Source: Halococcus salsus
Lineage (GTDB): Archaea > Halobacteriota > Halobacteria > Halobacteriales > Halococcaceae
Assembly: GCF_009900715.1 (NCBI RefSeq)
Contig: NZ_JAAAJC010000001.1
Location: 248,001-312,000 of the forward strand
Length of the DNA: 64,000 nucleotides
Direction: 5' to 3'
A program made the translations under genes and the position numbers. Positions 6,139-32,214 of this stretch are shown piece by piece. The notes beneath the pieces are model-generated. The model was not told the origin of the DNA. It saw only the letters and a program-made list of their open reading frames with translations, and did not search any database. How positions within the stretch are numbered: the stretch's first letter is position 1; each line of letters starts with the position of its first letter.

Positions 6139-8256
6139 ATGGGTAGCTGTATCATCTGCGGCACCTCCACGGATGGCCACATCTGCGAGAGCCACCAGGA
6201 GGACGTCGTCTTTGACTTCGAAGGATCGCACGCCAACCAACTCACCGCCGGCCGCTTCTACCGCGGCTCCGTCGACGGCTTCGCCGACTTCGGCGTCTTC
6301 GTCGACATCGGCGACAGCGTCACCGGGCTCCTCCACCGGAGCGAACTCGACAGTCGGCTCGAAAGCCTCGACTGGGACTCCGGCGACGAGGTCTACGTCC
6401 AAGTTACGGATGTTCACGACAACGGCAACGTCGACCTCACGTGGTCGATCCGCCAGTCCGACCGCGAGTTCCGGGGCGCGCTCGTCGACACCCCGGAGGG
6501 CGACGAACTCCCCGCGGAGGCTGACGACCCAAATGAAGACGCGGCTGCCGGGCGTCCGGTAGCCGACACCGCCGACGAAACCACGGAGACGTCGACCGCC
6601 GACGCGGAATCGACGACCACCGAGACGGAACCGACGACCGACCGGACCCGCGCCGACGGCGACAGCCCGGTCGAGACGACGTCGACCACCGATACAGTCG
6701 GTTCGACGGCCGATGCCGACGGTTCGACTGCCGATGCGGGCGGCGCGCAGCTCGTCGACCCCGAACCGGAATCGACCTCCGAGACCGACTACGAGACCGT
6801 TCGCACCGACGACCTCGACGAGCACGTCGACGACCCGGTTCGTATCGAGGGCGAAGTCGCGAGCGTTCGCCAGACGGGCGGTCCGACGGTGTTCACCCTC
6901 CGCGACGAGGCCGGAACCGTCGAGTGTGCAGCCTTCGAGGAGGCGGGCGTTCGAGCGTACCCCGGCATCGAGGCCGGCGCGTTCGTCGCGGTCGAGGGCC
7001 ACGTCGAGCGCCACCGGGGCGGTCTGCAGGTCGAATCCGACGACCTCTCGGTGCTCGACGAGTCGGGGCGCGAGGCGGTCGAGACGCGGATGGCGGACGC
7101 GCTCGCCGCGGAAGCCGAGGTCGAGTCGGTCGACCTCCTCGCCGAGGACGGCGTGGTGGCGGACCTCGCGGACGAGATCCGCGACCTCGCGGGGACGATC
7201 CGACGTGCGGTGTTGGAGTCCCGACCCGTCGTGGTGCGCCACGACGCGAGCGCCGACGGCTACCTCGCCGCGGCGGCCATCGAGCGCGCGACGTTGCCGC
7301 TCGTGGAAGCCGAACACGCCCGGAGCGACGCCGCCTACCACTACTTCGACCGGCGGCCGCTCGCCGAGGGCGTCTACGACATGGATTCGGCGACGCGCGA
7401 CGTCACCACGATGCTCGACGCCCGCGAGCGCCACGACGAAGCGATCCCGCTGTTCGTCTTCTGCGGCGTCGGCGGGACGAGCGCCTCGGCCGACGGCCTC
7501 TCGCTGCTCTCGGTTTACGACGCCGAGCGCGCGGTGCTCGACGTCGGTGTCGAGAAACGGGCGGACGTAGACGCGTTCGTCGGGACGGACGGGGACGGGA
7601 CCACGACGGCCGCGCTCGCGGCGAACGTCGCGGTCCACATCGACCCCGAGGTCCGCGAGGACCTCGCGCACCTGCCGGCGGTGAGCTTCTGGGAGCACAC
7701 CCCGGCGGCCTACGCCGACCTCGCGAACGAGGCGGGCTACGACGCCGAGCGCGCGCGGGAGGTCCGCGAGGCGGTCGCGCTGGTCGCGAACTACCAGTCC
7801 TACGAGGACAAACGCGAACTCGTTCGCGATCTCGTCTTCGAGGGTGGCGAGGCGCTCGCGGCGGCCTTCGCCTCGCGCTTCCGAACCAAGCGCGACGCCG
7901 CCATCGAGACCGCGCGCGCTCACCTCGACTACCGCGAGACCGACGCGGGGACGATCGGCGTGCTCGACACCGACGCGTTCACCCACCGTTACGACTTCCC
8001 GCCGACCGCGCTGCTCTGTGACGAACTCTATCGTCGAACTCGCGAGGCGGCTTCGGTCCTGGTCGGTGTCGGCGAGGACGAGCTGTTCGTCCGCGGCGAC
8101 GTGGACATCCACGCCATCGCCGAGGAAACCGCCGAGCGCGTCCCCGACGCCGACGTCTCCGTTGGCGCGGCGCGCGACGACCGGTTGGAGTTCCTGCTCG
8201 GCGAGCGCGATGCGGTGCAGGAAGCGGTCATCGACGTCGTCGCCGAGCAGATCTGA
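6139..8256 (+). CDS. S1/OB-fold/DHH-like nucleic-acid-binding protein
   Basis: A 705-residue modular protein. Residues 1-18 form a small Cys cluster (C4, C7, C15); 33-110 is an S1 RNA-binding domain (YRGSVDGFADFGVFVDIG); 115-215 is a Thr/Asp/Glu-rich linker; 225-305 is an OB fold (PVRIEGEVASVRQTGG...); 340-705 resembles a DHH phosphoesterase, starting with RHDASADGY (367-375), a variant of the RecJ motif I. The later DHH triad is not visible, so exonuclease activity is doubtful. The first ATG that places the Cys cluster at the N-terminus was chosen; a longer in-frame extension has no support. Its last 66 bases are duplicated at 9093-9158. Role: probably RNA or DNA end metabolism; exact substrate unknown. 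Confidence 0.8.
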   Translation: MGSCIICGTSTDGHICESHQEDVVFDFEGSHANQLTAGRFYRGSVDGFADFGVFVDIGDSVTGLLHRSELDSRLESLDWDSGDEVYVQVTDVHDNGNVDLTWSIRQSDREFRGALVDTPEGDELPAEADDPNEDAAAGRPVADTADETTETSTADAESTTTETEPTTDRTRADGDSPVETTSTTDTVGSTADADGSTADAGGAQLVDPEPESTSETDYETVRTDDLDEHVDDPVRIEGEVASVRQTGGPTVFTLRDEAGTVECAAFEEAGVRAYPGIEAGAFVAVEGHVERHRGGLQVESDDLSVLDESGREAVETRMADALAAEAEVESVDLLAEDGVVADLADEIRDLAGTIRRAVLESRPVVVRHDASADGYLAAAAIERATLPLVEAEHARSDAAYHYFDRRPLAEGVYDMDSATRDVTTMLDARERHDEAIPLFVFCGVGGTSASADGLSLLSVYDAERAVLDVGVEKRADVDAFVGTDGDGTTTAALAANVAVHIDPEVREDLAHLPAVSFWEHTPAAYADLANEAGYDAERAREVREAVALVANYQSYEDKRELVRDLVFEGGEALAAAFASRFRTKRDAAIETARAHLDYRETDAGTIGVLDTDAFTHRYDFPPTALLCDELYRRTREAASVLVGVGEDELFVRGDVDIHAIAEETAERVPDADVSVGAARDDRLEFLLGERDAVQEAVIDVVAEQI
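8191..8256 (+). repeat. 3'-end of DHH-like gene, left copy of direct repeat
   Basis: This is the final 66 bases of the preceding gene, coding FLLGERDAVQEAVIDVVAEQI and stop. A diverged copy lies at 9093-9158 in the same orientation, with the toxin-antitoxin pair between them. Confidence 0.85.
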
Positions 8257-8322
8257 TCCGAGGCAGTTCTTCCGAACACACTGCTTTCGACGGCGATCCG
8301 TTCGAGGGCTCGATTCTCGTGC

Positions 8323-8757
8323 TTAGACCGAATACGGATCGGTATCGGTGTTCAACCGGTCGACTCCATCGACGCTATCGAACCCATCGTCGAACGAGTA
8401 GATGTATTCGGTCTCTGTTGTTCGAGCGTACGCGACGAGGACCGAATCCACGAACGAGAGATGGGCCTGCGCCTCGTACACACCGAGGCCAGCGGTCCAG
8501 ACGTCGTCATCCGTTCGCCGGATCTCGAATCCGGCACTCGCTCGAAGCATCGAGAGTGCCTCGATCGTCTCGTCGTGGGCGATATCTAACGTCAACGCGT
8601 TCATCGTCTCGGCGAGGACGAAATCGAGCACGACGCAGACGGGAAGCGCCCGACTGTCGGCACCCCTGACGATCGCCAGACCCTCGTCGTGAAACTGATC
8701 ACGTCTCTGAAACGCGCCGTACAGCACGTTGGTGTCGACGAGCGCGTGCTGGGCCAT
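8323..8757 (-). CDS. PIN-domain ribonuclease toxin (VapC-like)
   Basis: A 144-residue PIN protein. The acidic metal-binding set is present: D8 (LVDTNVLYG), E50 (VLAETMN), D104 (SFVDSVL) and D123/D124 (YSFDDGFD). Such proteins cut tRNA or rRNA and are held inactive by a cognate antitoxin. The start chosen (MAQHALVDTN) sits one base after the stop of the upstream AbrB-type gene, so the two are cotranscribed. Length agrees with VapC proteins. The codon use is less biased towards GC than that of the surrounding genes, in keeping with an acquired module. Confidence 0.88.
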   Translation of the reverse strand: MAQHALVDTNVLYGAFQRRDQFHDEGLAIVRGADSRALPVCVVLDFVLAETMNALTLDIAHDETIEALSMLRASAGFEIRRTDDDVWTAGLGVYEAQAHLSFVDSVLVAYARTTETEYIYSFDDGFDSVDGVDRLNTDTDPYSV

Positions 8758-8758
8758 A

Positions 8759-9034
8759 CTACTCCTCGCCGGCGTCGAATTCGCCCGCGGGTTCGAGACC
8801 CGCGTGGTCGTGGTCGAGGGATTCGTGTTCGCCCTCGAAGCCGTCGAAATCCGCGAAGACCCCGGTTCGCTGACGAACGACCTCCACGGAGAGTTCACCG
8901 TTCTGCCACCGCCAGCGGATCGTATCGCCGTCCTCGATGTCGGCCCGTTCGCGGATCGACGCCGGGATCGCGGCGCGGTCACCGGAGACAGCGCTTTCGC
9001 CGACCGCCTCGGTACCCGCGTCCGATTCGCTCAT
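8759..9034 (-). CDS. AbrB/SpoVT-type antitoxin (VapB-like)
   Basis: A 91-residue acidic protein with an N-terminal swapped-hairpin AbrB domain (SGDRAAIPASIRERADIEDGDTI, about residues 17-40), which would bind the promoter of its own operon, and a disordered acidic C-terminal half that would wrap the PIN toxin. It ends one base before the toxin start. The ATG at 9034 was chosen because an upstream in-frame extension consists of unrelated basic sequence. Promoter DNA probably lies in 9035-9090. Confidence 0.85.
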   Translation of the reverse strand: MSESDAGTEAVGESAVSGDRAAIPASIRERADIEDGDTIRWRWQNGELSVEVVRQRTGVFADFDGFEGEHESLDHDHAGLEPAGEFDAGEE

Positions 9035-9092
9035 ACGGGAACGTTGTCGATGCAGGTATCTATCTTTTGTCGTGGCTGTCGTCCGTGCTGTG

Positions 9093-9158
9093 TTCCTGCT
9101 CGGTGAACGCGATGCGGTCCAGGAAGCCGTCGTCGAGATCGTGGCCGAGCAGGCGTAA
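9093..9158 (+). pseudogene. Duplicate 3'-terminal fragment of DHH-like gene
   Basis: The 66 bases code FLLGERDAVQEAVVEIVAEQA then TAA, matching 17 of 21 residues of the C-terminus of the DHH-like protein at 8191-8256. No start codon or remaining gene body precedes it. Together with the left copy it brackets the toxin-antitoxin pair, as expected for duplication during insertion or for loss of a second gene copy. Confidence 0.8.
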
Positions 9159-9316
9159 GGCTCGACCGACCGCAATTTTGCCTGCGAGAAGACATATTTC
9201 ACTTACACCGGGCTAGCATTCGATTTATACCGGCAATTATCGTACATCCACCTATGTCCGTGAGATGACTCGAACCGGGTCACATATCTCAGAAGGATAC
9301 GGGAGGTGAAATCAAA

Positions 9317-9496
9317 ATGGCATCAGTCAAATCACAGATGCGTCGCGAAATGAAGAAAGAGGGGCGGCGACAAATCCGAGAGTACAAAAAACAACTCCGG
9401 AAACGGGGTGTTCCGTCTAAAGAACGAAATCGGTTGGTTCGAGAGTTCAAGAAACAGCTCCGAAAGCAGCGGCGGAAAGTGCTCAGAAACGTCTGA
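9317..9496 (+). CDS. Small, very basic protein with internal repeat
   Basis: A 59-residue reading frame preceded by a strong ribosome binding site (GGGAGGTGA at 9300-9308, about 8 bases before ATG). It has 25 Lys/Arg against 5 Glu, extreme for a haloarchaeon with an acidic proteome. Residues 20-30 (IREYKKQLRKR) and 41-51 (VREFKKQLRKQ) are near repeats, linked by a GVPSKERN turn, so a helical hairpin is likely. Base composition is AT-richer than its neighbours. A nucleic-acid or ribosome-binding role is plausible but is inference. It resembles no family I recognise. Confidence 0.6.
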   Translation: MASVKSQMRREMKKEGRRQIREYKKQLRKRGVPSKERNRLVREFKKQLRKQRRKVLRNV

Positions 9497-9527
9497 GCAT
9501 TAACTCGGGATTCTCGGAATAAACGAA

Positions 9528-10136
9528 CTACGAAACTTCGAAAACACGCAACGTATCGCGTTTCGTACGTTCGGAAAACCGCTGGACGAGTCCGAGGTCG
9601 GTGAATATCCCCTTCCAGTTCCGGTAGTAGAGCGGGAAGTCGTCGTTGACGTAGTTCACGTCGCCGTGGTCGTCTGAATCGTCCCCCTCGTTCTCGACGG
9701 TGACGAGCAGGTCCGCCGTGACGCGGGCCACCTCCTCGAAGACACCAGTGTTCTCCGGCGGGACGTGCTGGAGGGTCTCGACCGAGTAGACCACGTCGAA
9801 GGCGTCGTCGGGGAACTCGGGGAGGACGTCTTCGATCGCGCCGGTGTGGAACGTGCCCGCCGCGGCCAAGTCGGGGTACCCGTCGGCCATCGCCGCGAAG
9901 GACTCGTCGTTGATGTCGATGCCCGCGAGGTTCGAAAAGCCCGCCTCCTGGAGGTGGGCGAGGTGTCGACCGGCGCTACAGCCGAGTTCGAGGATCGTCG
10001 CGTCCTCGGGGACGGCAGCCGTACAGACTTCGGCGAGGCGTTCGCTCGTCGCGTTCGGGCCCAGGTGTGCGTAGTACGCGGGTGAGAACTCCCCGGAACG
10101 GCCGGCCCAGCAACGGTGGTTCTCGGCCGGATCCAT
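9528..10136 (-). CDS. Class I SAM-dependent methyltransferase
   Basis: A 202-residue Rossmann-fold methyltransferase: motif I ILELGCSAG (48-56), acidic loop GIDINDE (strand 2), then DVVYSVETLQHVPPE for motif IV. The C-terminal part (NVTFPLYYRNWKGIF-like region, here DFPLYYRNWKGIFTDLGLVQRF) probably shapes the substrate pocket; the substrate is not known. It occupies the place downstream of sdhB where haloarchaea usually carry sdhA, but shows no relation to succinate dehydrogenase. Confidence 0.85.
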   Translation of the reverse strand: MDPAENHRCWAGRSGEFSPAYYAHLGPNATSERLAEVCTAAVPEDATILELGCSAGRHLAHLQEAGFSNLAGIDINDESFAAMADGYPDLAAAGTFHTGAIEDVLPEFPDDAFDVVYSVETLQHVPPENTGVFEEVARVTADLLVTVENEGDDSDDHGDVNYVNDDFPLYYRNWKGIFTDLGLVQRFSERTKRDTLRVFEVS

Positions 10137-29957: not shown

Positions 29958-30464
29958 CTACGGCTCGATCGCGGTCTCGGGGTTCGCGATCGACCAGAGC
30001 CGTTCGGGCAGGAAGTCGTCGAGGTGGTCGATCACCCGGCGCTCACTCACGTCGAGGCCCTCGCAGTGGTCGTGGGCCTCCTCGCGGATCGAGATGTGGA
30101 GGTCGTCGTCTTCGAGTTCGACGGAGAGCGGAAACACCGAACAGCGGACTGGCTTCCAGTCGTGTTCGGCGTGGAGCGCACAGAGGCCGTCGTCGCGGAG
30201 GAAGAAGCAGGCCGCGCCGTCGAGGGCCACGTCGTTCTCTCGGTCCTTCGGCTCGCGTTTGACGGCCTGCTGGCCCCGAAAGTCCACGGTGGCCTCGTTG
30301 ACGTTCGCGCGTTTCGCGAGCCCCACGAGGTCGGGGTCCGAGAGTAGTACGCCGTGTTGACAGCACCAGGTACACGAATCGATGCACTCGAAGGTGAGGT
30401 CGGGGTCGAGCTCCACGACCGCCTCACAGCCGGGATGCACCTCGATCCGCTGTCCGTCGGTCAC
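29958..30464 (-). CDS. YkgJ family cysteine-cluster protein
   Basis: A 168-residue protein with the YkgJ (CxxxCxxC...) pattern: CIDSCTWCCQHG near the N-terminus, CFFLRDDGLCALH and CSVFPL in the middle. These cysteines are thought to bind zinc or an iron-sulfur cluster; the biochemical role is unknown. The GTG start at 30464 (VTDGQRIEV) was chosen because upstream sequence is AT-rich and not acidic. Confidence 0.85.
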   Translation of the reverse strand: MTDGQRIEVHPGCEAVVELDPDLTFECIDSCTWCCQHGVLLSDPDLVGLAKRANVNEATVDFRGQQAVKREPKDRENDVALDGAACFFLRDDGLCALHAEHDWKPVRCSVFPLSVELEDDDLHISIREEAHDHCEGLDVSERRVIDHLDDFLPERLWSIANPETAIEP

Positions 30465-30545
30465 GAGGGCTCTCCGCGACGCGCCCGCCAAAACCTTCCG
30501 GTTGATGGCGATTACTGTGCTATTCTGGTGAATTATTGGGAAAGA

Positions 30546-30554
30546 ATTTTGATA
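30546..30554 (+). promoter_or_regulatory. TATA-like element before the Mrr/PH gene
   Basis: An A/T-rich AATTTTGAT element lies about 25-30 bases before the ATG at 30577, consistent with a leaderless transcript. Confidence 0.5.
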
Positions 30555-30576
30555 GCGTGACACGCCTGTTAACAAT

Positions 30577-32214
30577 ATGGGGCTATTCGACCGAGGAAAT
30601 TCTAATGACGAACTCCTCGTCGTAACGGAACTTCTCGAAAATGGAGAGGGCAACTCCGTTACGAAGAAAAATCTCACTGGTAGAGAGGTCGGAGGAGAAT
30701 CGCTTCTATCCTACATTCGAAATGGCGAACAGCCACACTACATTCTCAACAACCGAAACAAGGGACTCACCTACAATGAACGAGGGACAAAGGATACCAC
30801 TCAACCTTCTAGTAGTGGCTGGGCGTTTTGTCTGTTCACTGACCAGCGCGTTCTATTCATAATCGATACCGACTCTGGGATTGACCAGCGAAGTATCGAA
30901 TATGATGATGTCGAAAGTGTCGAAGCATCCACAGGCTTTCTGAAAAATCAGATCACGATCAAAACCCTCTATGCGAATTACCGATTCTACGTGAGTGGTT
31001 CTATCTCTTCGGATGAATTCGAGAATTCTATCGCGTTCGTTCGACGTCAGGCGGGTCTCGAAAAACCAGCGGTAATGAACACACCAACTACCACGCCCAC
31101 ACAATCGGCAACTCCCTCTCTGTCGGAAGATCGGGACAAAAAGACAGTACTACAACGACTCAGGAGTATGGACCCGTACGAGTTTGAACATTTCGTCGCG
31201 GATCTCTGGGAGGCTCAGGGATGGGAGGCCGCGGTTTCGCAGGCGTCTGTTGACCAAGGGGTGGATATCGTTGCGACGAAGCAGAATCCGTTTCCGCAAA
31301 AGCAAGTGATCCAAGCGAAGCGATACGCAGCGAATAATACGATCGGTAGTCCGAAGATACAACAGTACTCTAGCCTTCGACAACAAGAACCTGGAGCGGA
31401 CGTTTCTGTAGTCGTTACGACCAGTGGTTTCAGTCGCCAAGCCGAAGAACTAGCGCAGAACCTGAATGTAAAGCTGGTCGATGCTGAAGGGATCTATCGA
31501 TTACTGAAAGAAGTCGATCGTTTCGATCTTGTAGCAGAGTACTCACCGGTCCAGATCGAATCCGTATCGGGGCCAGCGATCGGGCAAGAACAACAGACGT
31601 TCCAAGGAGAGAGGGATATAGAACGGAACATAACCGATGCGGAACCGTCTTCTGTTATTGTTGATTCGCATTCCGAAGCGGATTCCTTCTTAAAAGAATA
31701 TACTGAATGTCCTAACTGTGGAGAATTTGTGCCCATGAAGCGAATTTGGCGTAAAGATTTGATTTTTCCGAAGCTGCAATGCACTCAGTGCCAGACCGTG
31801 TTCGCCGAGGATGATGATGTACTCATTCTGCTGAAGAATATCCGAACAGAGAGGACACAGAGCGCGAGTAAGTACGGTTACTACGGCGTTGCAGTTGGTG
31901 TCGTACTGGCAACTATTGGTGTCGTCACACCGACTCTTGCCATTCTGACATGGCTCGCTCTCCCGATCGCGATCAGCAGAGACACACGCTATGTTCGCGC
32001 TAACAGCAGCAGAAATCCCTCAACTGGATATTGGGTGTGGGGAGCTGTGGCTCTCCCACTCATTTCTGCAGTTGTTATCGGAGGTATCGGTATCGGGGCT
32101 GCATCACTCATTACGGGCGGGGCTTATCTCGTTCAGAGGCATCGAAACGATACTACGGAATCTGGAATTCATCAAAAAGGAATCAGATCCTATATCACTC
32201 AGAAGCGTAGTTAA
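30577..32214 (+). CDS. PH-like/Mrr nuclease/zinc-ribbon membrane protein
   Basis: A 545-residue accessory protein with four parts. Residues about 40-158 look like a bacterial PH-like beta domain (WAFCLFTDQRVLFII, RSIEYDDVESVEASTG). Residues 195-315 are an Mrr-type PD-(D/E)XK nuclease: E204, D230 in DQGVDIVA and Q246-A-K248 in QAKRYA are the catalytic set. A zinc ribbon follows (C378, C381, C402, C405). Two or three membrane helices lie at 433-466 and 487-520. The DNA is clearly AT-richer than all neighbours, indicating recent acquisition. It overlaps the convergent transcription factor S gene by four bases. Likely role: membrane-linked nuclease, perhaps defence; this is inference. Confidence 0.85.
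   Translation: MGLFDRGNSNDELLVVTELLENGEGNSVTKKNLTGREVGGESLLSYIRNGEQPHYILNNRNKGLTYNERGTKDTTQPSSSGWAFCLFTDQRVLFIIDTDSGIDQRSIEYDDVESVEASTGFLKNQITIKTLYANYRFYVSGSISSDEFENSIAFVRRQAGLEKPAVMNTPTTTPTQSATPSLSEDRDKKTVLQRLRSMDPYEFEHFVADLWEAQGWEAAVSQASVDQGVDIVATKQNPFPQKQVIQAKRYAANNTIGSPKIQQYSSLRQQEPGADVSVVVTTSGFSRQAEELAQNLNVKLVDAEGIYRLLKEVDRFDLVAEYSPVQIESVSGPAIGQEQQTFQGERDIERNITDAEPSSVIVDSHSEADSFLKEYTECPNCGEFVPMKRIWRKDLIFPKLQCTQCQTVFAEDDDVLILLKNIRTERTQSASKYGYYGVAVGVVLATIGVVTPTLAILTWLALPIAISRDTRYVRANSSRNPSTGYWVWGAVALPLISAVVIGGIGIGAASLITGGAYLVQRHRNDTTESGIHQKGIRSYITQKRS

Follow-up and report, generated by a model that had tools for sequence, protein, structure and literature searches.

Apart from CRISPR and classical restriction, the immune systems of archaea are poorly mapped, and the main text of a survey of archaeal immunity (PMC12988326) does not mention Mrr nucleases. 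The canonical Mrr enzymes, those of Escherichia coli and Haloferax volcanii (HVO_0682, 1005 bp, PMC5867850; compared here by description), contain the Mrr_cat nuclease domain, which in E. coli Mrr is accompanied by an N-terminal Mrr_N winged helix (PMC3874153). The H. volcanii enzyme restricts GATC-methylated plasmid DNA (PMC7776575, PMC6471742). MspJI and AspBHI share the nuclease fold, carry an SRA-like recognition domain (PMC3874153) and have no membrane part. Similarity of the nuclease domain does not dictate modification dependence (PMC3874153). Membrane-bound forms are found in bacteria, where TM-Mrr_cat-Zn_ribbon_Top1 proteins such as WP_180896647 of Priestia megaterium pBMG5 (plasmid examples named here were picked by similarity, not at random) combine a membrane helix, an Mrr domain and a zinc ribbon. 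They are also found in haloarchaea, where a RefSeq 'restriction endonuclease' family, exemplified by the 481-aa WP_227778021 of Haladaptatus pallidirubidus, has many members with a C-terminal membrane tail; in some, a short PH-like region stands at the N-terminus. No experimental study of the haloarchaeal family was found, and the literature searched yielded neither a study of a PH-Mrr or membrane-anchored Mrr protein nor a function for archaeal PH domains.

An ORF of Halococcus salsus, located in the 64,000-nt stretch of contig NZ_JAAAJC010000001.1 that we analysed (positions 248,001–312,000; hereafter the window), encodes a 545-aa protein that fuses, in this order, a PH domain, an Mrr-type nuclease domain, a Cys4 zinc ribbon and a C-terminal membrane part (Table 1). 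The ORF list and the translation reproduce the coordinates and length given in a preliminary description of the locus. The Mrr core is ~45–55% identical to those of the haloarchaeal membrane-tailed family and has the same invariant E/D/QxK residues. The Priestia protein, in contrast, has 212 aa, a one-helix N-terminal anchor and a topoisomerase-type ribbon, and lacks a PH domain. Because such bacterial proteins exist, membrane anchoring is not unique to the H. salsus protein; what is new is the fusion to a PH domain and the four-part order. Among the relatives found, the full order is confined to this protein and that of Saliphagus infecundisoli (locus L036), the one full-length relative (51% identity), and no activity is known from the literature searched for any protein of this architecture. 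Identity to the Saliphagus protein is 76% in the Mrr domain, 55% in the PH domain, 45% in the zinc ribbon, 39% in the membrane part and 23–29% in the linkers.

Table 1. Features of the nuclease gene and its insertion (window coordinates)
Feature	Position	Strand	Evidence
PH-Mrr-zinc ribbon-membrane nuclease gene	30577..32214	+	ORF, translation, Pfam, AlphaFold2 model
PH domain, residues 9-158	30601..31050	+	Pfam bPH_3, model pLDDT ~95, VIA-align
Mrr-type PD-(D/E)xK nuclease domain, residues 183-322	31123..31542	+	Pfam Mrr_cat, VIA-align
E204, helix glutamate of nuclease	31186..31188	+	Invariant in 36/36 relatives
D230, catalytic aspartate	31264..31266	+	Invariant in 36/36; aligned with corresponding Asp of 1y88
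Q246-A-K248, QxK catalytic motif	31312..31320	+	No variation in Q or K among 36 relatives; paired with ExK of 1y88
Cys4 zinc ribbon, residues 373-412 (C378, C381, C402, C405)	31693..31812	+	Paired CxxC, model beta strands
Membrane part at the C-terminus (residues 413-544), with four predicted helices	31813..32208	+	Hydropathy, model helices, tail model
TATA-like TTTTGATA, ~27 bp 5' of ATG, within insert	30547..30554	+	Read from sequence
Single-gene insertion, 1,705 bp	30503..32207		blastn alignment of L038 (G000) with L039 (G085)

The nuclease domain matches Pfam Mrr_cat at residues 195–309 (E 7.6e-27, over the curated cut-off). In VIA-align comparisons it gave Z scores of 15.7 with AF1548 (1y88), 14.2 with AspBHI and 13.2 with MspJI. 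A PDB sequence search with the protein alone returned nothing significant, and a search with a profile of the Mrr domain recovered 1y88; in a profile of 39 Mrr domains, D230 pairs with the aspartate of AF1548, and QxK falls on its ExK motif. The Mrr_cat fold, the D...(E/Q)xK site and Z scores of 13–16 place the domain in the Mrr-type PD-(D/E)xK superfamily. The catalytic residues sit where the preliminary description had placed them, and the superposition on Mrr that it had set beforehand as a test holds. E204, D226, D230, Q246, K248 and R249 show no variation in the 36 relatives aligned. A Pfam scan at E <= 1 detected neither an Mrr_N winged helix nor an SRA-like or other modification-reading domain. 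The protein thus differs from canonical type IV Mrr, with its N-terminal Mrr_N winged helix, and from the MspJI family, with its N-terminal SRA-like reader; its own N-terminal domain matches PH folds.

This N-terminal domain scores as a bacterial-type PH domain, bPH_3, at residues 49–156 (E 4.5e-7; 30.7 bits against a curated cut-off of 23). Structurally it resembles bacterial PH domains and domains of the GRAM type, with Z of about 10–11 (10.6 to 3dcx, 10.5 to 3hsa and 10.9 to MTMR2), so that the PH-like beta domain seen earlier by eye is borne out by Pfam, model and solved structures alike. Because solved bacterial PH domains of the bPH_3-type fold are reported to form oligomeric rings (PMC2817789), the domain may, by analogy, serve oligomerisation. 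The PH module by itself occurs in 109 of 293 haloarchaeal genomes and is also fused to HNH-repeat/PadR/HHH proteins and SHOCT proteins. In three haloarchaeal proteins of 830–1,050 aa (L051, L052, L058) it is joined to helix-hairpin-helix domains and HNH repeats of the homing-associated type; L051 and L052 also contain PadR.

The zinc ribbon and the C-terminal membrane helices of the preliminary description are likewise recovered, from the paired CxxC motifs, the strands and helices of the model, and hydropathy. Both cysteine pairs are retained in the Saliphagus protein, and cysteine pairs are present C-terminal to the Mrr domain in three further relatives (L014, L125, L128). Helices are predicted at residues 413–446, 452–476, 483–501 and 503–544, two of which exceed the hydropathy threshold. 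The Mrr core together with the tail motif DxRxVR...YxxxRR assigns the protein to the haloarchaeal Mrr-membrane family. A model of the membrane tail (A6) finds the same tail in the Saliphagus protein and other haloarchaeal proteins, small ones among them, and matches the H. salsus protein at E 1.4e-21, a partly circular value since that tail is among the rows of the model. The AlphaFold2 model, built from an alignment of 54 haloarchaeal sequences, has a mean pLDDT of 80.6 and ~95 across the PH and Mrr domains; its low pTM of 0.40 fixes no relative placement of the domains.

The gene is a foreign single-gene insertion. In the sister genome G085, 14 bp stand in place of the insert: homology to the H. 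salsus locus runs up to window position 30502 (92.5%) and resumes from 32208 (89.4%), and the flanking genes, 97–98% identical, lie 55 bp apart. As the preliminary description had noted, base composition changes sharply here: GC content is 0.487 in the insert, whereas non-overlapping 1,705-bp pieces of the window average 0.683 (SD 0.026), with a minimum of 0.591. A second congener, G061, also lacks the gene at this site, and four others (G005, G034, G099, G133) have ~1–1.5 kb of normal GC at the junction, judged by eye to hold an aldo/keto reductase-like gene in the first three and apparently in G133 too. Given its absence from G085 and G061 and the different gene in G005, G034 and G099, the nuclease gene is not a core gene of the genus. 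Both outcomes that the preliminary description had named as telling against it, a failed domain match and a core gene at this locus, are therefore absent. Nor is the insert a prophage or plasmid remnant, as it contains the nuclease gene alone; no target-site duplication was seen. The gene was more likely gained in the H. salsus lineage than lost elsewhere, because no full-length relative was found other than that of Saliphagus infecundisoli. The TATA-like TTTTGATA, judged from its sequence and position, is a possible promoter of the gene's own leaderless transcript.

On the right, the gene overlaps that for transcription factor S by four bases (32211–32214), as described before, and Pfam (Zn_ribbon_TFIIS) supports the identity of this neighbour. 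The label YkgJ that had been given to the left neighbour (29958–30470, minus strand) was assigned by eye, and no Pfam family matched the gene even at E 1; this cysteine-rich gene is kept in 7 of 10 congeners. Within the window, the second lowest GC content, 0.591, belongs to positions 8216–9920.

A survey of 293 haloarchaeal genomes of the order found matches at E <= 1e-30 in 43 (~15%). The family is widespread, patchy and unstudied in haloarchaea. Most members end in a C-terminal membrane tail. Around the Mrr core stand, in varying combinations, a PH-like domain on the N-terminal side, zinc ribbons at either end or other C-terminal extensions; members in G061 and G069 have PH domains on both sides of the core, and the long C-terminal extensions of some look propeller- or TPR-like by eye. 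More than a quarter of the family genes compared (8/31) are >8 GC points below their flanks. Phage records gave three distant Mrr matches only, and IMG/VR one locus. Two pairs of relatives have dN/dS values of 0.20 and 0.19. The family is under purifying selection and is therefore functional; with the intact frame and catalytic residues of the H. salsus gene, this rules out a dead nuclease or pseudogene. A paralogue in the same genome (G000:C2:204679-205083; L002, L143) encodes 273–286 aa with an Mrr domain and membrane tail. It has a GC content of ~0.51 versus 0.70 around it and splits a cytidine deaminase-nucleoside phosphorylase gene pair; a search for a target-site duplication showed a 4-bp overlap at its insertion site. 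Its site is occupied in three of ten congeners (G000, G061, G077), and the flanking genes abut in the other seven, including G085.

In PADLOC, the H. salsus protein matches best to the candidate defence family PDC-S02 and to models of type IV mREases. Some relatives adjoin a DISARM/Hma-like SNF2 helicase (in G061), type I-B cas genes (Halomontanus) or McrBC (Haladaptatus), and several family copies lie among ordinary core genes. Within ~5 kb of 14 family loci, a PADLOC tally at E <= 1e-20 showed no excess of known defence genes (95 neighbours versus 101 proteins from control loci of the same genomes), on crude gene calls that may miss AT-rich genes. Residence in defence islands, which the preliminary description had proposed to look for, thus applies to some relatives but is unsupported as a rule for the family.

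We favour the view, at a probability of roughly 0.55, that the gene was acquired horizontally and encodes a single-protein, membrane-anchored nuclease of restriction type that likely cuts foreign DNA near its entry point. The C-terminal helices would keep the protein at the membrane, on the cytoplasmic side; the Mrr domain would cleave DNA, and the zinc ribbon would probably help to hold it. The PH domain would probably drive oligomerisation or sense a partner and so gate the nuclease. Viral, plasmid or transformed DNA near the point of entry would be the likely target. A fold and catalytic residues matching those of modification-dependent restriction enzymes argue for this role, as do the empty site in G085, the patchiness of the family, the paralogue whose fixed site is also filled in some congeners and empty in others, the PADLOC matches, the dN/dS of ~0.2, the defence genes beside some relatives and the plasmid restriction by H. 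volcanii Mrr. Against it stand the failure to detect a modification-reading domain (SRA, Mrr_N, winged helix), the flat PADLOC tally and the membrane anchor, which limits reach to DNA away from the membrane. If it is correct, one easily transferred gene can station restriction at the archaeal membrane, and archaeal PH domains gain a simple, testable function. More tentatively, haloarchaea might use a family of one-gene immune nucleases at the membrane, in which interchangeable sensor modules (PH, zinc ribbon, other C-terminal extensions) would detect incoming DNA or a disturbed membrane and the Mrr core would cut at the site of entry.

Swappable sensor-like modules (PH, zinc ribbons, long C-terminal extensions) around one nuclease core would also suit an abortive-infection effector, whose PH or membrane part would sense infection or membrane damage and release a nuclease until then held inactive to cut the cell's own DNA, the resulting growth arrest or death ending the infection. 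The Mrr domain matches the Avs4 nuclease domain (Z 9.6), and E. coli Mrr is capable of damaging the chromosome of its host (PMC3874153). However, the sensing step is wholly presumed, and the locus has no immunity or antitoxin partner; we consider this explanation rather unlikely. Less probable still is a housekeeping or envelope nuclease that handles DNA at the membrane, in uptake, recycling, repair or plasmid transfer, with no part in defence, which the copies among core genes, such as the paralogue, and the PADLOC tally would allow but which does not fit low GC and patchy presence even between sister genomes. A selfish homing-like gene that spreads its single-gene insert by cutting empty alleles would account for the clean inserts, exact sites, empty alleles and fusion of the PH module to homing-associated repeats in other proteins, but is very improbable given the unexpected membrane anchor, the unrelated insertion sites of family members and the fact that high sequence specificity is not a known trait of Mrr nucleases (PMC3874153).

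The absence of a partner gene noted in the preliminary description is right for the H. salsus locus, and some relatives have recurrent neighbours. In G061 (L067:10029-16308), a DrmD/Hma-like SNF2 helicase and a DUF499-like ATPase lie beside the PH-Mrr-PH gene and may represent an incomplete or variant DISARM-like system. In Haladaptatus and Halalkalicoccus, a PDDEXK_1 and AAA_11/12 helicase of 1,450–1,510 aa (L124:2755-7287, L135:517-4881; 42% identical to each other) lies directly upstream of the Mrr-membrane gene, with which it possibly forms a two-gene system.
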